Shown one piece after another: positions 1-9,898 of a stretch of DNA of 13,311 nucleotides. Below the pieces are notes generated by a model. That model searched no databases, was not told the origin of the DNA, and saw only the letters and a program-made list of their open reading frames with translations. Within the stretch, counting starts at the first letter, position 1. The number at the start of each line of letters is the position of its first letter. Where the stretch lies: positions 1-13,311 of the forward strand of contig JACRDW010000102.1 in the NCBI GenBank assembly GCA_016212785.1, in the 5' to 3' direction. Origin of the DNA: Methanobacteriota archaeon. Its GTDB lineage: Archaea > Hydrothermarchaeota > Hydrothermarchaeia > Hydrothermarchaeales > JACRDW01. A program made the translations under genes and the position numbers.

Positions 1-185
1 GACGTGCCGCTTTCAGCTTTCTGAACCGACGCGTGCTCTATCTGCATTGACTCTACCTTCTGCTCGAAATCCGTGGTTGCGCCCTTGATTCGAATATTGT
101 CGCCAACGGAGAGAGTTCCGCTCAGCTTAATTCCAGCCACGCCCACCTTGGAGAAATACGTAAATACCTTCCCGACTTCCTCCAT
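1..185 (-). CDS. Translation elongation factor-like protein (EF-Tu domain 2-like), C-terminus cut by window edge
   Basis: Reading leftward from an ATG at 185, 61 codons run off the window with no stop. The protein begins MEEVGKVFTYFSKVGVAG and contains LSGTLSVGDNIRIKG followed by TTDFEQKVESMQIEH. This is the small stand-alone beta-barrel protein annotated in many archaea and some bacteria as elongation factor-like, resembling domain 2 of EF-Tu/IF2. The family is usually about 80-90 residues, so roughly 20-30 residues are missing. A GGGGTGA ribosome binding site lies just upstream of the chosen ATG; another ATG at 189 is in a different frame. No GTPase domain is present, so it is not a full elongation factor. 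The cellular role of the family is not established. It is divergently oriented from the restriction-modification/mre11 operon. Confidence 0.85.
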   Translation of the reverse strand, partial: MEEVGKVFTYFSKVGVAGIKLSGTLSVGDNIRIKGATTDFEQKVESMQIEHASVQKAESGT

Positions 186-212
186 ACATTCACCCCATTT
201 TACCTTCCGCTT

Positions 213-232
213 CTGATTATAAAAACTTTTTG
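213..232 (-). promoter_or_regulatory. Archaeal BRE/TATA promoter for the leftward elongation factor-like gene
   Basis: On the minus strand this stretch reads CAAAAAGTTTTTATAATC, a good match to the archaeal pattern of an A-rich BRE followed by a T/A-rich TATA box. The box is about 35 bases before the ATG at 185. A start of transcription about 25 bases downstream would give a leader of roughly 10 bases containing the GGGGTGA site. Inferred from pattern and spacing only. Confidence 0.55.
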
Positions 233-253
233 CAATACTTTTTCCTCGCTCTC

Positions 254-292
254 GCAAAACTTTTTAATCTTATGTGGGATAATTATACCCAT
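254..292 (+). promoter_or_regulatory. Probable rightward promoter with an imperfect palindrome at the expected start site
   Basis: GCAAAACTTTTTAATC (about 256-271) resembles an archaeal BRE/TATA element. About 20-25 bases downstream, where transcription would be expected to begin, lies an imperfect palindrome, GGG-ATAATTAT-A-CCC (278-292). The arrangement would let a repressor cover the start site, but no regulator gene is visible. This promoter would serve the mre11-like mini-ORF at 340 and perhaps the whole rightward operon. Confidence 0.4.
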
Positions 293-326
293 AGAAGGGC
301 TCACATGAACCAAGTATCTTTTCTTT

Positions 327-378
327 GGGGTGAATTATAATGTGCTTTGCTCACCTTGCGGAGAGGGAGGTCGAATAA
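327..378 (+). pseudogene. Remnant of an mre11 start: ribosome binding site plus a 13-codon mre11-like ORF
   Basis: A GGGGTGA site (327-333) precedes an ATG at 340 that opens the short frame MCFAHLAEREVE, stop at 376-378. The genuine mre11 begins MKFAHLADTHLG. Aligned on their start codons, TTTGCTCACCTTGCGGA here matches TTCGCTCACCTTGCAGA in mre11 at 15 of 17 bases, including an exact 11-base run (349-359 and 3939-3949). After that the match is lost, apart from a possible low-complexity resemblance of GAGAGGGAGG to a stretch about 40 bases further into mre11. It is most simply the old mre11 translation start, left behind when the restriction-modification gene came to lie between it and the present mre11. 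A translated leader peptide is the alternative. Confidence 0.5.
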
Positions 379-432
379 CACCCGACACTTTACTTTTCCC
401 AAGCTCTCAGGAAAATTTCATAAGTGCGGGTG
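379..432. repeat. Nested inverted repeats between the mre11 remnant and the restriction-modification gene
   Basis: CACCCG (379-384) pairs with CGGGTG (427-432), and inside it TTTTCC (394-399) pairs with GGAAAA (410-415). The two 6-bp stems are nested, with asymmetric unpaired stretches between them. The element starts at the stop codon of the mre11-like remnant and could be a terminator, a processing site or the footprint of the event that brought in the enzyme gene. No function can be shown. Confidence 0.3.
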
Positions 433-448
433 AAGAGAAGGTTGAGGA

Positions 449-492
449 GAATAAAAAATTAAATAACTCTAAAGAGTATATAGGTTTAAAAA
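449..492 (+). promoter_or_regulatory. Possible gene-proximal promoter for the restriction-modification gene
   Basis: AAATTAAATAA (456-466) lies about 30 bases before the ATG at 493, the spacing expected for a TATA box driving a leaderless transcript. No GGTGA-like ribosome binding site is present just before this ATG, unlike the other genes of the window, which fits leaderless initiation. Between box and start sits a small inverted repeat, ACTCT-AA-AGAGT (466-477), that could be an operator. In-frame stop codons at 481 and 487 rule out an upstream extension of the enzyme. Confidence 0.4.
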
Positions 493-3400
493 ATGACAAC
501 TGAACTCAGCTTTACAGAGAATGTATTGAAAGCTTTCAAAAATATAACTAAAGAAATAGAGAAAGGCTCGTCCGAACACGATGTGAGATATAGATTTGTT
601 AAATATTTTGTTGAAGAAGTTCTTGGATATGAACCTAAATATATCAGATGGGAAAAGAAAAAAGCAGATTTGACGATTGTAGATGAAAATAACTTTGCCA
701 TAATTAAAATCGAGACCAAGAAGCCAAGTGAAAATATTGAGAAACCGGAATACGAAGAGCAGGCTTTTAAATACGAAGAAGAAACCACTAGATTCATAGG
801 TTTAACGAATTTCTTACAGTTTAAATTATGGGAAATTAAGAAAACGGGAAGTGAACTGAAGATTAATATTGATTTTTCCAGAATTTTGGAGCAGAGAAAA
901 CTGGTAGAACAATTAACAAGCGAAGAAAAGACCCAAATATTATTTTTGAATAATTTAACCAAAGAAAGCCTATTCGACCCAAGTAAATACGAAAAATTTG
1001 ATGAAAATTATGCAAGGGTAGATATAACGAAAGAAGCAGGATTTAGAAAACTCCTTGACAGACTGAATTTTATAACCAATAATCTGCTTTTAGGTTATAC
1101 ATTAAGGGCGTTTGGCGAGTATAAGGAAGGTTATAGCAAATACAAAGAGGAAATTGATAAAATCGACAATGAACTAAAAAACAAGAATAATAGAGCCATT
1201 AACCACAGTCTTGTAAAATACAGGCAAAAAATAGAGGAAGAATATGAAAAGTATAAATCATTCTCAGGATTCCAGTTATGGAAGCACTTTTCTGGGAAAG
1301 AAGACCTGCCTGACGATGAGGTAAAAGAGGTTTTCTGCAAGGAAACCATTTATGTTTTTCTGAACAAGCTTTTATTCCTTAGAATATGCGAGGACAAGGA
1401 ATTTCTCGAAAAGAGCATTTCAAACGGCGGCATTGAACAGCTGAGAGAAGTCTTCAAGAGAAGATTTGATGAAGATGTCCTGAATAAAGAGATAATAGAG
1501 ACCGCATTTAAAAGCGGAAAGACCATTTATTCCAGATTTTACGAAACTGGCATTCTCGACTGGTTCAGGACAGGGGATGGAGACCTAAATAAAATTTTGA
1601 ACAGAGTATTATGGATTTTAAATCAGTTTGATTTTACGCATGTGGATAGAGACATTTTAGGAAATCTTTATGAAAAATATCTGCCGAGCAAGGAAAGAAA
1701 GGCGTTAGGAGAATTTTATACGCCGACCGAAGTTATAGATTATATTCTAACATCTGTAGGCTACACCTACAGCTATGAAATAGAAACCAATGACCTGCTT
1801 GACCCTGCCTGCGGCTCTGGCGGCTTCTTGGTCAGAGCTACAAGAAGACTGATAAGCAGGTATCTGATGAAATTCGGCAAGGCAGATAAAAGAGAGCTGA
1901 GAGACCCCAGAAATTGGAAGGAAATCGTAGGTAGATTAAATCCAGACGAGGCAAAGATAATCATCGAGGCAGTGAAGGAGCACATCTACGGCTTAGACAT
2001 TAACCCATTCGCCTGCCACATTGCAGAGATGAACATGCTCTTCCAGACGATTGACCTGTATCAGAAAGTCAGGCAGAAGTATTCGGACTACAAGCTGGGC
2101 AGGTTCAAGATTTACAGAACAGATTCCCTGGAACTCCCGAAGCAGAAAACAATAACCGACTTCGGCAACCATCTCAAATTTTTAGAAGAACAGGATGAAA
2201 TAGAAGCAATCAAAAACAAGAAGTTTGATTTCGTCGTGGGGAATCCGCCGTATGTCAGGGTGCAGGTGCTGGATGAAAGGACAAAAGATTATCTCAGAAA
2301 AGAGTACAAAACAACGTTTAGCAATTTTGATTTATATGTCGTATTTATTGAGAGGGGTTTAGATTGGCTAAAGGAAAATGGAAAATTTGGATATATAACA
2401 TCTAACCAATTTATGAATAGAGGATATGGACAAAAACTAAGAGACTTTATACTAAAAAATTCTGAGATAATAAGCATAATTGATTTTGCAAGGTCAAAAG
2501 TATTTCAAGATGTTACTAATTATCCGGCAATTATTATTTTTAAGAAAACAAGACCTACAGAAAATATTTTAAAGTTTATAGCAGTGAAGGAAGAAAAACC
2601 CGATTTAATAAAAGATGTATACTTTCATTTTAGAGAAAAAGAATACAGAAGCAGATATTTTGACATCTTTGAAATTGTCCAGAATGAATTAAATGACAGC
2701 CCTTGGCAATTCTCTCCTAAGACGGAATCCAAGGTATTGGTCAAAATTGATGGAGTGAAAACTAAACTAAGTGACGTTTCAAAAATATTATTGGGAATCC
2801 AAACAGGGAAAGATGGCTTACTTGTTGGTAAAATAACCAAAAAGAAAAGCGAGAGTCTGGTAGAATTCACCTCTAAGGAAGATAAAGCACAAATAGAGAC
2901 AGAGTTATTAAAACCATTACTCCGAGGAAGAGAAGTCAGACGATGGGGCACAAGATGGTCAGGTTCTTATGTAATATGCCCGCATGAACAAGTAAGTTTT
3001 CAACCATTGAATGAAAAAGAATTGAAAGACCATTATAACACTACTTTTGAATTCTTAAAAAAACATGAAAGTGAAATAAGAAAAAGATTAATGTATGGTC
3101 AAACAGCAGAAGAAAAAACTGGGGCGTGGTATTCTTTAATGTATTTTGATTACGCCAAATTTTATGGAAAACCAAAAATATTGACTCCCGCATTAACAGA
3201 TAAAAACAATTTCACGATAGATGAAAAAGGGTATTTTTTTGTACTTGGAACGGCAGGGGTCTATGGAATAATTCCTAACGACAAAATCGATATGAAATAT
3301 CTTCTTGGCGTTCTAAATTCTCAAATTTCAGAGTATTATCTAAAGAAGATATGCCCCATAAAGCAAGGCGGCTACTTTCAATATAGCACCAAATTTTTAG

Positions 3401-3933
3401 AACGCCTCCCAATCAAACTCCCGCAAACGCCTGAAGAAAAGAAAATTGCGGACCAAATAATAGAAAAAGTTGATGAAATTCTTGAGCTGCATAAGCAAGG
3501 GATTGCGGATATAGACGCTGTTCTCGAAGGCGAGGAAACTGAAAAGTTGTGCAACCTGCCGAAAGTTGCGTTTTCGATAAAAGATGATGCGAAATTTGAG
3601 AAAATTAAGGTTGATGGAAATAAGATTTACATAAATCGAAAAGACCACATCGAAATAAAGGACAAGAAAGTTCTCGATTTCGTTGCAGTTTATCTTAATT
3701 TTATCAATGAAAAGTTAGCTAAGTCCAAAGACGTTAGAAGCGCAATTCTCAATCTTCCTGTTCTGAAATCCGAAGAAATTTTAAAGGAGATTGTCAAGAA
3801 AGGCAGCGCGGATTATTCTCAAATTAAAGAAAAAATCAAGAAGTTGGAGCAAGAAATCAACGAGCTTGTTTATGAGATTTATGGGGTTACAAAAGAGGAG
3901 AGGAAAATTATTGAGGGGAACTTAAAATTATGA
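493..3933 (+). CDS. Single-chain restriction-modification enzyme (Type IIG-like, Eco57I-family methyltransferase)
   Basis: This 1146-aa protein joins nuclease, adenine methyltransferase and target recognition in one chain. Residues 1-120 look like an HsdR-type PD-(D/E)xK nuclease: D59, then E74-T-K76, with Q90 downstream. A helical linker leads to the methyltransferase: LGEFYTP (405-411), motif I DPACGSGG (437-444) and catalytic motif IV NPPY (584-587), which indicate N6-adenine methylation. The rest is a TaqI-like specificity domain, with RGREVRRWG near 815-825 and GGYFQYSTKFLERLPI further on, ending in a coiled coil. All key motifs are intact, so both activities are plausible. The stop codon overlaps mre11 by ATGA. 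Coding sequence is more AT-rich than its neighbours, especially after motif IV. PglX of BREX is unlikely because a nuclease domain is present and no BREX partners are seen. Confidence 0.88.
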   Translation: MTTELSFTENVLKAFKNITKEIEKGSSEHDVRYRFVKYFVEEVLGYEPKYIRWEKKKADLTIVDENNFAIIKIETKKPSENIEKPEYEEQAFKYEEETTRFIGLTNFLQFKLWEIKKTGSELKINIDFSRILEQRKLVEQLTSEEKTQILFLNNLTKESLFDPSKYEKFDENYARVDITKEAGFRKLLDRLNFITNNLLLGYTLRAFGEYKEGYSKYKEEIDKIDNELKNKNNRAINHSLVKYRQKIEEEYEKYKSFSGFQLWKHFSGKEDLPDDEVKEVFCKETIYVFLNKLLFLRICEDKEFLEKSISNGGIEQLREVFKRRFDEDVLNKEIIETAFKSGKTIYSRFYETGILDWFRTGDGDLNKILNRVLWILNQFDFTHVDRDILGNLYEKYLPSKERKALGEFYTPTEVIDYILTSVGYTYSYEIETNDLLDPACGSGGFLVRATRRLISRYLMKFGKADKRELRDPRNWKEIVGRLNPDEAKIIIEAVKEHIYGLDINPFACHIAEMNMLFQTIDLYQKVRQKYSDYKLGRFKIYRTDSLELPKQKTITDFGNHLKFLEEQDEIEAIKNKKFDFVVGNPPYVRVQVLDERTKDYLRKEYKTTFSNFDLYVVFIERGLDWLKENGKFGYITSNQFMNRGYGQKLRDFILKNSEIISIIDFARSKVFQDVTNYPAIIIFKKTRPTENILKFIAVKEEKPDLIKDVYFHFREKEYRSRYFDIFEIVQNELNDSPWQFSPKTESKVLVKIDGVKTKLSDVSKILLGIQTGKDGLLVGKITKKKSESLVEFTSKEDKAQIETELLKPLLRGREVRRWGTRWSGSYVICPHEQVSFQPLNEKELKDHYNTTFEFLKKHESEIRKRLMYGQTAEEKTGAWYSLMYFDYAKFYGKPKILTPALTDKNNFTIDEKGYFFVLGTAGVYGIIPNDKIDMKYLLGVLNSQISEYYLKKICPIKQGGYFQYSTKFLERLPIKLPQTPEEKKIADQIIEKVDEILELHKQGIADIDAVLEGEETEKLCNLPKVAFSIKDDAKFEKIKVDGNKIYINRKDHIEIKDKKVLDFVAVYLNFINEKLAKSKDVRSAILNLPVLKSEEILKEIVKKGSADYSQIKEKIKKLEQEINELVYEIYGVTKEERKIIEGNLKL

Positions 3934-5024
3934 AATTCGCTCACCTTGCAGATACTCACCTCGGCTACAGGCAGTACAATCTGGACGAGAGAGAGGAGGA
4001 TTTCTACGCTGCGTTTCACGAAGCGGTAGAAAAAATCATCGCAACTAAATGTGACTTCGTTGTGCATGCTGGTGATTTATTCGACGAGCCGAGACCGCAT
4101 GTAAGGGCGATGGTGGAAGTTAGAAAAGCGCTGGACAGACTTCACGAAAGCCGCATTCCAATCTTTGCAATACCCGGAAACCACGACATACTCATGCGCA
4201 GGGGAGCAATGATACCGCATGCAATATACAAACGAATCGAGGTGCTGAGCGTAAAGAAGCCGTGGGTCGAGTTCAATGGAATTTTCGTCGCAGGTCTGCC
4301 TTACCACTCAAAAATCCATGCAAACGCATTGAAAGAGGAGCTGCACAAGCTTGCAAAAATGGCAGAGCGTTGTGACAAGAAAATTCTAATTTTGCACCAA
4401 GGCATAGATAAATATTTTCCGCTGGAGTATGAGCTTAAGTTTGCTGACATACCTAAGGGCTTTGACTACTATGCTCTGGGCCATGTGCACAAACGAATAA
4501 TAGACGAATTCGAAGACAGCAGGCTTGTTTATCCCGGTTCGACTGAAATGTGGCGGATAGACGAGTTAAGCGATTATGAAAAAAATGGTAAAGGATTCTT
4601 CATCGTTGATGCTGAGAATTTCGAAGCAGAGAGAGTGAATTTAGATGTTCGACCGTTCGTAAAGGCGGAAGTTGATTCGAATTTAGACCTTGAAAAAATT
4701 AGGGAAGCCCTGAAGACTGCGAGGAAGCCGGTTGTAAATATCACTGTAGCCTCTGATGTGCACGAATACCAGCAGATATATCAAAGGCTGGTCAGCGAAT
4801 TGAAAGATGCGCTATACCTGGACATAAAGAGAAAGAGAGCCGAGGAAAAAGAAGAGGCGATTTACGATAAGACGATAAACATTCGAGAGCTGATGAACGA
4901 ATTAATGAAGGGTTATTCCGAGGCAGAGAGAGACTACGCATATTCTGTTTTTAAGGCGCTTTCGAAGGGAGATTTAGACGAAGCAAGAATCGTTACCGAA
5001 GATTTCTATAAGGTGTTTAAATGA
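3930..5024 (+). CDS. mre11: DNA double-strand break repair nuclease Mre11
   Basis: A 364-aa calcineurin-type phosphoesterase, the Mn-dependent nuclease that resects DNA ends together with Rad50. The phosphoesterase motifs are all present: DTHLGY with D8 and H10, HAGDLFD with D49, PGNHD with N84-H85-D86, H156 in ILHQG, and GHVH with H185 and H187. The catalytic core occupies about 1-240; the remainder holds the capping region and the Rad50-binding helices. Length is close to the usual archaeal size. The start overlaps the upstream enzyme stop in an ATGA, and its own stop overlaps the rad50 start in the same way, so all three are probably translated in a coupled manner. No separate promoter is visible before it. 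The usual archaeal partners HerA and NurA are not in the window. Confidence 0.96.
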   Translation: MKFAHLADTHLGYRQYNLDEREEDFYAAFHEAVEKIIATKCDFVVHAGDLFDEPRPHVRAMVEVRKALDRLHESRIPIFAIPGNHDILMRRGAMIPHAIYKRIEVLSVKKPWVEFNGIFVAGLPYHSKIHANALKEELHKLAKMAERCDKKILILHQGIDKYFPLEYELKFADIPKGFDYYALGHVHKRIIDEFEDSRLVYPGSTEMWRIDELSDYEKNGKGFFIVDAENFEAERVNLDVRPFVKAEVDSNLDLEKIREALKTARKPVVNITVASDVHEYQQIYQRLVSELKDALYLDIKRKRAEEKEEAIYDKTINIRELMNELMKGYSEAERDYAYSVFKALSKGDLDEARIVTEDFYKVFK

Positions 5025-7357
5025 TCATCGAAGAGGTCGAAATCAAAAACTTCAGGTCGCACAGGAGCAGCAAAATTAAATTTGACCAGGGAATCTCGGT
5101 CATCGTTGGCGACAACGGCTCAGGAAAGACGAGCATTCTTGAAGCAGTAAACTTTGCCCTGTTCAAGCAGAAGCCGAACAACATAAACGCAGACGACTTG
5201 ATCCGCAGGGGTACAGAGGAAGCAGAAGTTTCTGTTACATTCCATTCCAACGGAAGAAAATACAGGGTAATGCGGGGAAGGAAGCTCGGGAAGGCGAGCG
5301 GAAGCGCACTTTATCAGGATGAAAAACTGCTCGTAAGGGGCGAGGACGAGGTAACTCTGGAAGTAGAAAAGATACTCGGAGTTAACGGAGAGCTTTTCAC
5401 GAGCGCAGTTTATATCAAGCAGGGGGAAATCGACGGCTTGATTTCGGCTGCGCCTGCGGTCAGGAAGGAGCAGGTCGGCAGGCTGCTCGGAGCGCAGGAC
5501 CTGGAAAATGCGTACAAAAACATGAGGGAGCTGATAGGCGAATATGACATGCGCTTTGAAAAATTTCAGACAGTGCCTGAGGATATAAAGAAAACAGAGG
5601 AAAAAATTAAAAAAGAAAAGCAGGAGATTGCGCAGCTGAGCGAAGAAATAAAAATCATTGAGAGAAATCTCTCAGAGAAGAGGAGACGGTTTGAAGAAAA
5701 AGAGAAAGAAATCGCGCAGCTCGAAAAGCTGAAAGATTTGCTGAATGCGAGGGAAAAAAATCTCGCAGAAATCGAAAACCTAGACGAGAAAATCAAGAAG
5801 ATTGAGAGCTATGAGAGGGAGCTGAAAGAAACAGAGAAAATTCACGAAGAATACGCAAAACTGGAGCAGGAAATCGAGGCGCTGAATCAGGAAAAAATAA
5901 AGCTTGCAGGATATTCAGTCAAATGCGAACAGCTGAGCAGCGAGCTTGCCTCTCAAAGAAAAAAAGCTGGCGAGCTGTCTGAATTTATCAAAAGTGAATT
6001 TGAAAAGTGCGGCGCTATTTTCGATGCAAAAGTTGAGTCCTATGAAAAGTTAGAGCAATTACTCTCAAAGAATATGGAAAATATTGAGGAAAAGCTGATT
6101 GAAATTAGAGAAGAAAAAGATGGGCTGACTTCCAAGATTGGAAAGCTCAGGGGAAATAACGAGGAGATTGAAAGGGCGGTCTCCGAGCTGGAGGAGGCTA
6201 GAGATAAGTGCCCTGTGTGCGGCGCAACGCTTACGGAGAAGCACAAGCGAAAATTGCTCGAAGAGTATTCTGCAAAAATCGAAAAAAATAGCAGCGGGAT
6301 TTTGAGGTGCGAGAAAAAATTAGAAAATTGCACCAGAGAAGAATCAAGACTGGAATCGCAGCTGCGAAAGATGGAAAGCATAAATCTGGAGATGCTCGGG
6401 TCGAAAATAGGCGAGGAGAGGGAGATAAAAGATGAAATTGAAAAAATATCTGGAGAGCTGAATGAAAACCGAAAGCTCTTAAAAAATTTGGGTGAAGTGG
6501 AGAAAAAACTGTCTGAGAACGAATTGGAAAAGGCAGCGCTTAAAGACGGCAACGAACGATATATAGAAGCCAAGCTCTTTTTAAGGAAAAATTTTCCTGA
6601 CAAAGAAAAATTTCAGGAAGAGATTGAGAAAATAAGAAAGCGCATCGAAAGCCTGGAGACGGAGATTAGAAAACTAAGATATGCTCCCGAGAAGATAGCG
6701 CAGCTGGATAACCTGAAAATGGAGAGAAGCATCCTTCAGGACGAACTCACAAAACTTGAGAAAGACAAGAGCTGGAACGAATCGACAATAAAAGAAAAAG
6801 GCAGGTCTATAGAAAATTTAACAGCGGAATTAGAGGAGCTGAAAGCAAAGGAAAAAGAGCTTAACAAGCTGGGCAATTTCAAAATTTTTCTAGGGCGCAT
6901 AAGGGAGCTGTTTCACAAGGACTACCTGCAAAGAGAACTCAGGGTTAAGTCCAGACCGCTGGTTGAGAAATATACCCGGGAGGTATTCGACAGGTTTAAT
7001 CTGCCTTACTCAGACATAGGCATAACCGAAGATTTCAATATCGTTGTTTACAGCCAGCACGGCGAGGAGAGCGTGGACATGCTCAGCGGAGGTGAGAGAA
7101 TCGCGGCTGCGCTTGCCCTGCGCATCGGCATAGCAAGAGCACTTTCGGGTTCTGCAATGGAGCTGATAATGCTCGATGAGCCCACGATACACCTCGATGC
7201 CCTGCGAAGGAGGGAGCTGGTCGACATCATCAAAAAGCTCTCCTCGATACCGCAAACCATCGTAGTAACTCACGACAAGGAATTCGAGAACGCCGCAGAC
7301 CGCTTGATTCTCGTTGAGAAAGTTGAAGGAGTTTCGCAGGTGAGATATGAGGAGTGA
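5021..7357 (+). CDS. rad50: DNA double-strand break repair ATPase Rad50
   Basis: A 778-aa SMC-like ABC ATPase that forms the Mre11-Rad50 complex. The N-terminal lobe carries Walker A, GDNGSGKT (30-37). Two heptad-rich coiled-coil arms (about 155-385 and 410-640) flank a zinc hook, CPVC (397-400), through which two Rad50 molecules join. The C-terminal lobe has the ABC signature LSGGE (688-692), Walker B LIMLDEP (715-721) and the H-loop in VVTHDKEF. The protein is shorter than most archaeal Rad50s (roughly 850-900 aa), because of shorter coiled-coil arms; both lobes look complete. It starts within the mre11 stop (ATGA overlap) and its last 11 bases overlap mfnD. Confidence 0.96.
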   Translation: MIIEEVEIKNFRSHRSSKIKFDQGISVIVGDNGSGKTSILEAVNFALFKQKPNNINADDLIRRGTEEAEVSVTFHSNGRKYRVMRGRKLGKASGSALYQDEKLLVRGEDEVTLEVEKILGVNGELFTSAVYIKQGEIDGLISAAPAVRKEQVGRLLGAQDLENAYKNMRELIGEYDMRFEKFQTVPEDIKKTEEKIKKEKQEIAQLSEEIKIIERNLSEKRRRFEEKEKEIAQLEKLKDLLNAREKNLAEIENLDEKIKKIESYERELKETEKIHEEYAKLEQEIEALNQEKIKLAGYSVKCEQLSSELASQRKKAGELSEFIKSEFEKCGAIFDAKVESYEKLEQLLSKNMENIEEKLIEIREEKDGLTSKIGKLRGNNEEIERAVSELEEARDKCPVCGATLTEKHKRKLLEEYSAKIEKNSSGILRCEKKLENCTREESRLESQLRKMESINLEMLGSKIGEEREIKDEIEKISGELNENRKLLKNLGEVEKKLSENELEKAALKDGNERYIEAKLFLRKNFPDKEKFQEEIEKIRKRIESLETEIRKLRYAPEKIAQLDNLKMERSILQDELTKLEKDKSWNESTIKEKGRSIENLTAELEELKAKEKELNKLGNFKIFLGRIRELFHKDYLQRELRVKSRPLVEKYTREVFDRFNLPYSDIGITEDFNIVVYSQHGEESVDMLSGGERIAAALALRIGIARALSGSAMELIMLDEPTIHLDALRRRELVDIIKKLSSIPQTIVVTHDKEFENAADRLILVEKVEGVSQVRYEE

Positions 7358-8339
7358 AAAAGTCTTCCTCTTCGAGTACGCAACTTGTGCAAGAAGTAAA
7401 CTTCCGCCCTCAATAGCAGTCGAAGGCATTGGCATGTTCAGGACGCTGTACGAGGGCTTTGCGTTAGCAAGACCGCAAGTCTACCGCACTACCTTCGGTA
7501 TTGAAAACCCGATTTCATTCTACGATGCAGAAAACTATACCAAACTTTTTGAAGAGTATCTCGATAAAGCAGACTTTGCTCTGGCAATTGCGCCGGAGAG
7601 CGGCTTCGAACTCTACAGACTGACAAAAAAAATTGAAAGCTCGAGCTGCGAAAATCTCGGCTGCAGTTCAAAGAGCGTTAGGATAGCGACTGACAAATTT
7701 TTGACCTACAAAAAATTGAAGGGAATAAACATTCCCAAGACCGAAATTTTTGACGGAAAAACTAGACTGGAATTTCCTCTAATAGCAAAACCCAGAGACG
7801 GCGCGGGCTGCGAGGGAATCTTTTTCGTTGAAAGCGAAAAGGAGCTTGAAAAAATTCCGAGAGAAAATTACATACTCCAGGAGTACGCCGAAGGGCAGCC
7901 CTGCAGCGCAAGTCTTCTCATAGGCGACGAAATAAATCTTCTAAGCTTGCAGACGCAGGAAATTGAAAATTTCAAATACGTCGGCGCAGAGATACCAGTC
8001 GAAATTGAAAATACTGGAAACATTCTCAGGGCTGTTGAAAAAATCAAGCTGCACGGCTTCGTCGGAGTGGACTTCATTGCGGGCGGAGAGATAAAAATAA
8101 TCGAGATAAACCCGAGACCGACGACGCCCATAATTGCGCTGAACAGAGTTTTTGATTTCAACGTTGCGGAGCTGATTTTAAAAAATTACTACCGAGAAAA
8201 ATTGCCGAAGTTCGAACCAAAAAGAAAAATTTACATGAAAAAAATTAAGGGAAACAAAGGCTACGCATCCTTCGGCGGCTACTCAATCGTATTGGAAGAA
8301 TCGGTGTCGAGCACTCGTTTCGAAGGAACGAAAGCATGA
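7347..8339 (+). CDS. mfnD: Tyramine-L-glutamate ligase, ATP-grasp (methanofuran biosynthesis)
   Basis: A 330-aa ATP-grasp enzyme. The family adds glutamate to tyramine, forming the gamma-glutamyltyramine part of methanofuran, the C1 carrier of methanogenesis and its reverse. The N-terminus FLFEYATCARSKLPPSIAVEG is typical of MfnD. ATP-grasp elements are KPRDGAGCEG (148-157) and the metal-binding loop EINPRP (253-258). A GGTGA site lies about 5 bases before the ATG, inside rad50, and the two genes overlap by 11 bases. The last ten or so codons (SSTRFEGTKA) and the stop lie inside a hairpin repeat, so the natural C-terminus has probably been replaced or extended by repeat sequence. The partner gene mfnF follows after that repeat. 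Confidence 0.85.
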   Translation: MRSEKVFLFEYATCARSKLPPSIAVEGIGMFRTLYEGFALARPQVYRTTFGIENPISFYDAENYTKLFEEYLDKADFALAIAPESGFELYRLTKKIESSSCENLGCSSKSVRIATDKFLTYKKLKGINIPKTEIFDGKTRLEFPLIAKPRDGAGCEGIFFVESEKELEKIPRENYILQEYAEGQPCSASLLIGDEINLLSLQTQEIENFKYVGAEIPVEIENTGNILRAVEKIKLHGFVGVDFIAGGEIKIIEINPRPTTPIIALNRVFDFNVAELILKNYYREKLPKFEPKRKIYMKKIKGNKGYASFGGYSIVLEESVSSTRFEGTKA

Positions 8340-8426
8340 GCAACGCTCATGCCATTCCGCAAGGAAGATGGCGTGTCTGCCATCTTTCTGACGAAAGTCT
8401 CGCTCTCTCGAAGCGAATGCGAGGAG
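8307..8426. repeat. Hairpin-rich repeat, copy A (end of mfnD to mfnF)
   Basis: A chain of short stem-loops: CGTTTC-GAA-GGAACG (8316-8330); GCATGAGC-AAC-GCTCATGC (8334-8352, perfect 8 bp); a 10-bp stem with one G-T pair, 8363-8372 with 8379-8388, whose left arm can also pair as TTCC-GCAA-GGAA (8355-8366); CTTTC-TGAC-GAAAG (8384-8397); and CTCGC (8399-8403) with GCGAG (8419-8423). The mfnD stop codon lies within the second hairpin. The left part matches copy B in inverted orientation (34 of 42 bases), the right part matches copy C in direct orientation (34 of 42). The purine-rich tail up to 8454 has no clear pairing. Role unknown: mobile remnant, transcript-processing site or structured RNA are all possible. 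Confidence 0.75.
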
Positions 8427-9626: not shown

Positions 9627-9898
9627 ATGTCAGCACTTCGCAGGCAGGCTTTTCAAACAACTTGACGTAGGGATTGTCCCTACGTCTGTCTTCTCGAATG
9701 CATTCGCTCCGAAGGAGCGAGGGCATGAGCGTCGCTCACGCTCTCGTTCTTGCAGAACGAATGCCTGCTCGTGCCGACACTCATTGGGTCAAGACACGAC
9801 GAGAAACGAATATAATGGGTCTCGGCACTAGGAGCAACGAGCGGAGCGAGTTGCTGGCATTCGCACCAACTTCCTATCGGAATTGAGAGGTGGATTGA
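9627..9898. repeat. Hairpin-rich repeat, copy B (zinc-ribbon gene to EF-1 beta)
   Basis: After about 37 plain bases, stems follow one another: a perfect 10-bp stem with TTG loop (9664-9673 with 9677-9686); a 12-base palindrome CGAATGCATTCG (9695-9706); TCGCTCC-GAA-GGAGCGA (9704-9720); GCATGAGC-GTC-GCTCACGC (9723-9741); TCGTTCT-TGC-AGAACGA (9744-9760); and a large nested structure in which CGAATGCC (9758-9765) pairs with GGCATTCG (9856-9863), enclosing GTGCCGA (9771-9777) with TCGGCAC (9822-9828) and AGCAAC (9833-9838) with GTTGCT (9850-9855). TTCC-TATC-GGAA (9871-9882) closes the element. The end matches copy C at 17 of 19 bases. Short open frames crossing it are by-products of the repeat, not genes. 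Confidence 0.75.
9801..9816 (+). promoter_or_regulatory. Possible EF-1 beta promoter inside the repeat
   Basis: GAAACG followed by AATATAAT (9809-9816) resembles a BRE/TATA pair. It lies in the large loop enclosed by the GTGCCGA/TCGGCAC stem of copy B. Transcription from here would begin near 9840 and give a leader of about 60 bases carrying the GAGGTGG ribosome binding site (about 9886-9892). Based only on pattern. Confidence 0.3.

Follow-up and report, generated by a model that had tools for sequence, protein, structure and literature searches.

How does a restriction-modification (RM) gene come to stand at the head of a DNA-repair operon, and does the host DNA keep a trace of its arrival? 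The question is raised by a stretch of 13,311 nucleotides (the window), which is contig C51 of an archaeal metagenome genome of 1.1 Mb in 161 contigs (G000), and in which a single-gene type IIG RM enzyme is encoded directly ahead of mre11 and rad50. The answer that we consider probable, and hold with good confidence, is that a mobile type IIG RM gene inserted at the start of mre11, that the old mre11 start was stranded as a scar, and that the RM gene came to head the operon. Judged from sequence comparison, the insertion and the scar are well supported, and the translational coupling of mre11 to the RM gene is plausible. The locus would preserve a readable scar of an RM gene entering a DNA-repair operon and taking over its head. 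The features on which the argument turns are the following.

340..378, forward strand: scar, a mini open reading frame (mini-ORF) of 12 codons (MCFAHLAEREVE, then a stop codon); the likely relic is 340-362, with an 18/23 ATG-anchored match to mre11
379..492, forward strand: AT-rich leader before the RM gene, 34% guanine plus cytosine (GC), with mre11 likeness at chance level
493..3933, forward strand: intact single-chain type IIG RM gene, 1146 residues, identified by Pfam, PADLOC, motifs and windowed identity
3930..3933, forward strand: ATGA, the RM stop codon lying over the mre11 start codon, read directly
3930..5024, forward strand: mre11, 364 residues, identified by profile matches and homologues

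The trace in question is the mini-ORF, which the initial annotation had singled out for its ribosome binding site, its ATG and a 15/17 match in register to the start of mre11, and these coordinates and base counts were confirmed. The motif GGGGTGA at 327-333 is followed, after a 6-nt spacer, by the ATG at 340, and a stop at 376-378 closes the frame. Positions 346-362 and 3936-3952 are equal at 15/17 bases; when anchored on the two ATGs, 340-362 and 3930-3952 are equal at 18/23 bases, an exact 11-mer included, in the same register and 3590 nt apart. The anchored match was reached in 0/3000 dinucleotide shuffles of 187-492 and 0/600 shuffles of 1-3900, while chance produced an exact 11-mer in 3/3000 and 16/600 of these shuffles, respectively, and a 15/17 match with the offset left free in 3/3000 and 3/600. 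A control on real sequence covered 6971 ATGs in 472,450 bases, on both strands of 22 loci (17 with mre11): three ATGs stood at 18/23 and four read M-x-FAHLA, at five distinct loci and all of them true mre11 starts, and none of the 6971 besides such starts matched as well as the ATG at 340. The own mre11 starts of relatives reach 18/23 in only 3/17 cases, the scar being as close to the window mre11 as are the best three of 17 orthologues from the same order or class. Throughout the G000 genome, the 17-mer with at most two mismatches is found at two places only (346-362 and 3936-3952); three mismatches add three further sites, and a reversed control likewise yields five in total. Of the 16 Mre11 homologues ranked closest among the matches listed (P0121-P0136), 14 start with MRFAH and two with MKFAH; the scar fits the former, commoner start, because its second codon, TGC, is a single transition away from CGC (Arg). 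On the strength of the ATG-anchored match, the control ATGs, the Arg-type second codon and the genome-wide uniqueness, 340-362 very likely represents a former start of mre11.

Alternatively, the mini-ORF might have come with the RM gene as a leader peptide or upstream ORF, or might match by chance. Such an account can call on the good ribosome site and on tests that forgo the anchor: the local match has p = 0.01 when single-base shuffles serve as control, 57/4000 shuffles reach the local alignment when gaps are cheap, and the 11-mer recurs in the 16/600 shuffles of the 3.9-kb region. Yet the 260-nt leaders of 4/4 RM homologues contain no frame like the mini-ORF by eye, the control ATGs offer no equal outside the true mre11 starts, and the mini-ORF sits where an mre11 start would be expected beside the elongation factor (EF)-like gene upstream, so that we regard this account as very improbable. 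A longer relic with an in-frame deletion, continuing past 362 (EREVE against EREED), was considered and rejected, its gapped alignment being the one reached by 57/4000 shuffles; the stretch after 362 has no detectable mre11 continuation and is alone at chance (2613/4000 shuffles).

The gene lying between scar and mre11 has REase_MTase_IIG as its best PADLOC model and Eco57I as its Pfam match. Its product carries a PD-(D/E)xK-like motif on the N-terminal side (D59...E74-T-K76), the methyltransferase (MTase) motifs DPACGSGGF (437) and NPPY (584), a variable specificity region at about 600-960 with PF12950 at 807-974, and a TaqI-like C-terminal domain; N6-adenine MTase motifs and specificity domain lie in the same chain, as in type IIG enzymes. 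In a survey of 100 sequences of 1091-1179 residues, the window's included, drawn from the best 120 matches listed, D437, P438, C440, G441, S442, G443, F445 and N584-P585-P586 are present in 100/100, A439 in 98/100 and G444 in 99/100, residue 587 is Tyr in 80 or Trp in 20, and the nuclease residues D59, E74 and K76 are found in 100/100, 99/100 and 99/100. The enzyme is likely to have nuclease activity, although its match to PF13588 (HsdR-N) is weak and below threshold (20.4 bits, cut-off 25). Assignment to the PglX protein of bacteriophage exclusion (BREX) systems was rejected, with 144.6 bits against a cut-off of 400 for BREX-2 PglX and lower scores for others; no search was made for other BREX genes.

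Homologues at 58-73% identity, among the matches listed, carry the labels of several archaeal groups, including Aenigmatarchaeota (70-71%), Altiarchaeales (60%), Methanosarcinales (59%) and Thermoplasmatales (58%). Within the window's order, an RM match of any kind occurs in 6/20 genomes (own included), the best foreign one being 33% identical over residues 286-684, and in a wider sample 9/394 genomes match at 1e-60, five of them (own included) across >90% of the query. Because homologues are found in several archaeal groups, because the order has no close match and because its GC content is lower than that of mre11 (32-37% vs. 44%), it is read as an incoming gene of horizontal origin. No relative of the RM subfamily was present among 12 pattern matches on virus contigs; at E <= 1e-50, seven plasmid protein records are 28-32% identical to the RM protein, and 18 phage records match it, eight of which are listed at 33-34% identity. 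The ORF annotation of the window, as far as it was inspected, lists no transposase gene.

The initial annotation described the RM gene as filling the gap up to mre11 with an ATGA overlap, which is accurate (493-3933, overlap at 3930-3933), and proposed that it had been inserted by a process that left or duplicated the mre11 start. The latter proposal is supported by the 18/23 relic and by mre11 loci without an RM match in 17/17 relatives, namely the closest others among 37 Mre11-matching genomes (own included), examined as DNA and belonging to the same order (14) or class (3). No RM match (E <= 1e-3) was found at any of these 17 mre11 loci, with at least 1.4 kb upstream in 14 and 270-398 nt in three. 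The named relatives of the window Mre11 (eight loci, 45-58% identical) are metagenome-assembled genomes labelled archaeon, Euryarchaeota, Hydrothermarchaeota or Candidatus Pyrohabitans. The features flanking RM and mre11 in the window read as follows.

3..185, reverse strand: 5′ part (61 codons) of the EF-like gene, encoding an EF-Tu domain 2 protein (MEEVGK...), truncated at the contig end, with its start at 185
186..339, no strand: divergent intergenic region of 154 nt, read directly
5021..7357, forward strand: rad50, 778 residues, with a zinc hook, overlapping mre11 by 4 nt
7347..8339, forward strand: ATP-grasp gene, overlapping rad50 by 11 nt

The EF-like gene is transcribed away from the RM/mre11 operon; across 60 residues it shares 95% identity with P0345 and P0340, and its 85-codon frame matches PF03144 below the curated cut-off (E=1.5e-4, 22.6 bits against 30.3). 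The region 186..339 probably holds the old mre11 promoter along with the ribosome site GGGGTGA. On the other side, mre11 and rad50 as well as the ATP-grasp gene all overlap their predecessors, and the top NCBIfam match of the last, under the family cut-off, is the tyramine-glutamate ligase MfnD.

An enzyme-free relative with the EF-like gene joined to mre11, as the initial annotation had envisaged, was not encountered directly: none of the 17 order or class loci has the two genes joined, and an EF-like gene lies near mre11 in G003 only, 3.8 kb off and 68% identical to the window's, with DNA ligase, response-regulator and histidine-kinase genes in between. Indirect support comes from P0122 (an Mre11 89% identical to the window's) and P0345 (EF-like), which share the same source and a longest recorded contig of 2336 bp; an EF-like gene and mre11 would leave at most 995 nt on such a contig, which cannot carry the RM gene because the latter is 3.4 kb long. 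From these equal contig sizes, a close relative seems to have the EF-like gene and mre11 on one contig free of RM. In the same manner, the RM-mre11 linkage seems to be kept in another relative, since P0018 (RM) and P0124 (Mre11) are both on a 15700-bp contig labelled “Methanobacteriota archaeon”; P0018 has the same C-terminus, NLKL, as the window RM, and P0124 is 86% identical to the window Mre11 (89% without its insertion). The contig sizes were cross-matched between three lists (RM, mre11 and EF-like), each made of the best 120 of 1221, 1334 and 239 matches, and the sizes shared were 10 for mre11/EF (one impossible), three for RM/mre11 (15700 and two doubtful) and none for RM/EF. Equalities at 1290 bp (mre11/EF), too short for both genes, and at 5883 bp (RM/mre11), with no common source, were set down to chance. 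P0068 (RM) and P0221 (mre11, 44% identical) are both on a 4504-bp contig, of which the pair would fill 4482/4504 nt; chance is a likelier explanation than another RM-mre11 pairing in an archaeon further removed.

The linkage also bears on the suspicion, natural for a metagenome assembly in 161 contigs, that RM-bearing and RM-free strains were joined into a chimera. Such an artefact is hardly credible, as the linkage seems to recur on the 15700-bp contig with the same RM C-terminus and scar and mre11 of the contig disagree at 5/23 bases, so that the scar is no copied k-mer. The flank of mre11 has a history of its own: DNA ligase lies beside mre11 or within a few genes of it in 6/17 relatives, as its immediate leftward neighbour in G007 and one gene away in G013, G014, G017, and G018. 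In the window's genome, an archaeal DNA ligase is on another contig (G000:C50:1112-2671; L074), and the mre11 flank has therefore been rearranged, apart from the RM event.

The RM subfamily has been located at five loci, the window included, the four others matching at E <= 1e-200; wider genome searches covered 29 genomes, a single genome and 94 Thermococcales-order genomes, the last with one match, and the neighbour survey comprises the five loci. In G288, the RM gene has a 4-nt overlap both with the UbiD gene ahead of it and with the aconitase X gene that follows; the G151 member comes 25 nt behind a cupin gene, itself part of a metallophosphoesterase-RadB-cupin stretch, and 2 nt ahead of purA; the G337 member comes 87 nt behind an M50 peptidase gene and has a 13-nt overlap with DNA ligase. 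With the window, 4/5 located members thus abut the start of a host gene that runs in the same direction, which hints at a pattern. RM-free counterparts exist for each of these three sites: UbiD and aconitase X are within about 20 nt in 10/12 relatives, the other two having 0.6-1.1 kb between them; cupin adjoins purA, with no RM match, in 9/9 relatives with purA; and the spacing of M50 and ligase is 18 nt in G394 and 238 nt in G271, G167 being unusable for comparison. In G167, which belongs to the genus of G337, DNA ligase matches fall in three separated pieces within an open frame of 1119 residues, a pattern that an intein would produce (G167:C67:259-3579; L091, L092, L094). The motif AATGA occurs at each end of the insert in G288 and once in the empty site of G237. 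Because other members precede unrelated housekeeping genes (purA, aconitase X and DNA ligase), mre11 appears to be one of several sites where the subfamily lands.

This diversity of neighbours speaks against the suggestion, raised as a possibility in the initial annotation, that RM and Mre11-Rad50 form a functional unit in which foreign DNA is cut and its ends are then processed. The overlapping genes, the catalytic motifs conserved in the RM family and the linkage that seems to be kept in a relative at 86% Mre11 identity would suit such a unit kept by selection, as would the member preceding DNA ligase and the one following the metallophosphoesterase-RadB-cupin stretch. However, other members precede purA or aconitase X, RadB is already upstream of cupin-purA in 7/9 RM-free relatives, no RM match was found at 17/17 order or class mre11 loci, and a close relative seems to be RM-free. 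A dedicated cut-and-process unit is disfavoured, is not needed to account for the locus, and appears unlikely to us.

Both partners bear signs of exchange. Compared with P0018 in blocks of 100 residues, the window RM is 69-94% identical over 1-600, 25-30% over 701-900, 52-57% in the flanking blocks and 77-87% in the last 146 residues; the specificity region has been replaced between these RM proteins, and its flanks are conserved. P0011 is 94-99% identical to the window RM per block over the first 600 residues and 25-27% identical in 701-900; because it is near-identical over 600 residues yet has a divergent specificity block, pieces of the RM gene travel. Among the Mre11 proteins, P0123 and P0124 are 97% identical, with 10 differences, eight of them at 80 N-terminal sites and two at 284 later sites, a clustering with a Fisher value of 1.2e-4 and 0.0005 in a breakpoint scan. 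At those eight N-terminal sites, P0124 equals the window at six and P0123 at one, which suggests that the RM gene spread along with the 5′ end of mre11. P0124 also has a 15-residue insertion after window residue 195, absent from P0123, either an assembly error or real.

These observations bear on how the RM gene arrived, within the insertion reading itself. Along one route, it would have inserted de novo, with duplication of a target of about 23 nt. Along the other, there was no target duplication: a ready-made cassette of RM and mre11 5′ end, assembled in another lineage, would have been imported through homologous recombination inside mre11 at its right end and an illegitimate join at its left, and the old start of the recipient would thereby have been stranded. 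The apparently mosaic make-up of P0124, whose first 80 residues are window-like and whose remainder is near-identical to P0123 save for the insertion, speaks for import, as do the travelling pieces seen in P0011 and the second codon of the scar, more easily derived from Arg (14/16 close homologues listed) than from the present Lys. The mosaic is in P0124 and not in the window, though, whose Mre11 is without a sharp breakpoint in 40-residue blocks, and we hold import as a tentative option, a serious contender short of being the expected one.

Several points weigh against an insertion at the mre11 start. In a tree of 17 Mre11 proteins, {window, P0121, P0122} separates from the other 14 with a support of 97 and P0123 groups with P0124 at 98, so the RM-bearing Mre11s (window and P0124) are not sisters; a single insertion with simple descent therefore fails, and exchange, loss or repeated gain is needed. 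Both linkages in close relatives are read from equal contig sizes, and chance equalities occur. The three other sites where RM precedes a host gene have no duplicated gene start like that of mre11, and 1/5 located members, in G198, lacks a co-directional downstream neighbour. Finally, tests of the relic that forgo the anchor give weak results (p 0.01-0.03 overall), among them the local match and the cheap-gap alignment.

With these points taken into account, the favoured course of events would be the following. In this hydrothermarchaeal lineage, a mobile single-gene type IIG RM would have entered the EF-like/mre11 junction at the mre11 start; the join would have stranded the first codons of the former mre11 and its ribosome site beside the EF-like gene (scar 340-362) and given mre11 an intact start immediately after the RM stop codon. 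In this way, the RM gene would have come to lead an RM-mre11-rad50-ATP-grasp operon and probably captured its promoter. Translation of mre11 is probably coupled to that of RM through the ATGA overlap, a dependence made plausible by the anatomy of the junction, and deletion of RM would then disturb mre11 expression. RM systems are hard to lose, a property known as addiction. Because this addiction is combined with a position before mre11, a gene called essential in thermophilic archaea, persistence of the RM gene may be explained well enough. The essentiality of both mre11 and rad50 in these archaea is stated in a review (PMC7776575). If confirmed at more loci, coupling to the translation of an essential gene would be a second way in which RM genes become hard to lose. 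A bolder proposal, which we regard as doubtful, is that the archaeal IIG subfamily is a self-spreading, transposase-free “operon wedge” that time and again enters host operons right at a start codon, makes an indispensable gene (mre11, DNA ligase, purA) translationally dependent on it and is kept by expression coupling and post-segregational killing, with its specificity region swapped in place.

Elsewhere in the window, the short intergenic stretch 8340-8423 aligns over 85 nt, at 86% identity, with contig C50 (L087 1-84), and inverted arms of 43 nt and 22 nt (8311-8353 and 8399-8420) pair with 9700-9764; together they look like a dispersed intergenic repeat of the window's genome. Rfam gave no match at gathering thresholds. 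A sigma-70 scan (18 sites vs. 14.3 in shuffles), unsuited to archaea, and the fold of the leader RNA (z = -1.94) were set aside.

How does this locus compare with known systems? Insertion of RM genes with long target duplications and the presence of RM genes in operons were reportedly described by the Kobayashi group, by Nobusato in 2000 and by Furuta in 2010. Genome comparison is said to have suggested that RM genes of every type can insert with target duplications of considerable and variable length, and operons are named among the places where RM genes occur (PMC3031569). The window RM resembles such insertions in lying beside a duplicated host stretch, present on both sides of it (340-362 and 3930-3952, 18/23), in having RM-free relatives and in the lack of a transposase gene in the ORF annotation inspected. 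Empty sites are seen at the DNA level for three other subfamily loci, and at mre11 an empty site is presumed from the equal contig sizes. The window RM differs in that the duplication measures only about 23 nt at mre11, with some 5 nt or no duplication where other members sit, and in that RM sits exactly at a start codon with a stop/start overlap with the host gene.

In the literature on Mre11 with restriction-modification, no report of an archaeal RM-mre11 operon pairing was found among the titles and abstract openings listed; the main text of a 2026 survey of archaeal immunity contains neither Hydrothermarch nor Mre11 (PMC12988326), and the portions seen of three further papers offered nothing more on archaeal operons (PMC3874152; PMC2614495; PMC3120642). 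Archaeal mre11-rad50 operons, with herA-nurA in thermophiles, are described in the same review (PMC7776575), and the window has the same gene order and overlap. Its operon, in contrast, is led by RM, and herA and nurA are not among the annotated genes of the window and were not searched for elsewhere.

As to the enzyme, the window RM is like the type IIG enzymes of the Eco57I/MmeI-like R-M-S (restriction-modification-specificity) kind in uniting an N-terminal PD-(D/E)xK-like region, an N6-adenine MTase core, a specificity region and a TaqI-like C-terminal domain in one chain. It departs from those known in belonging to an archaeal subfamily, 28-34% identical to plasmid proteins (7/7 records) and haloarchaeal-virus proteins (8/18 listed), and in a nuclease domain only weakly matched by PF13588. 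Exchange of specificity regions and domain movement in Helicobacter pylori RM enzymes are reported in two papers (PMC3077401; PMC3983042). The window RM and P0018 resemble this case in their conserved flanks and replaced specificity region, whereas they concern, by protein comparison, a single-chain archaeal IIG enzyme.

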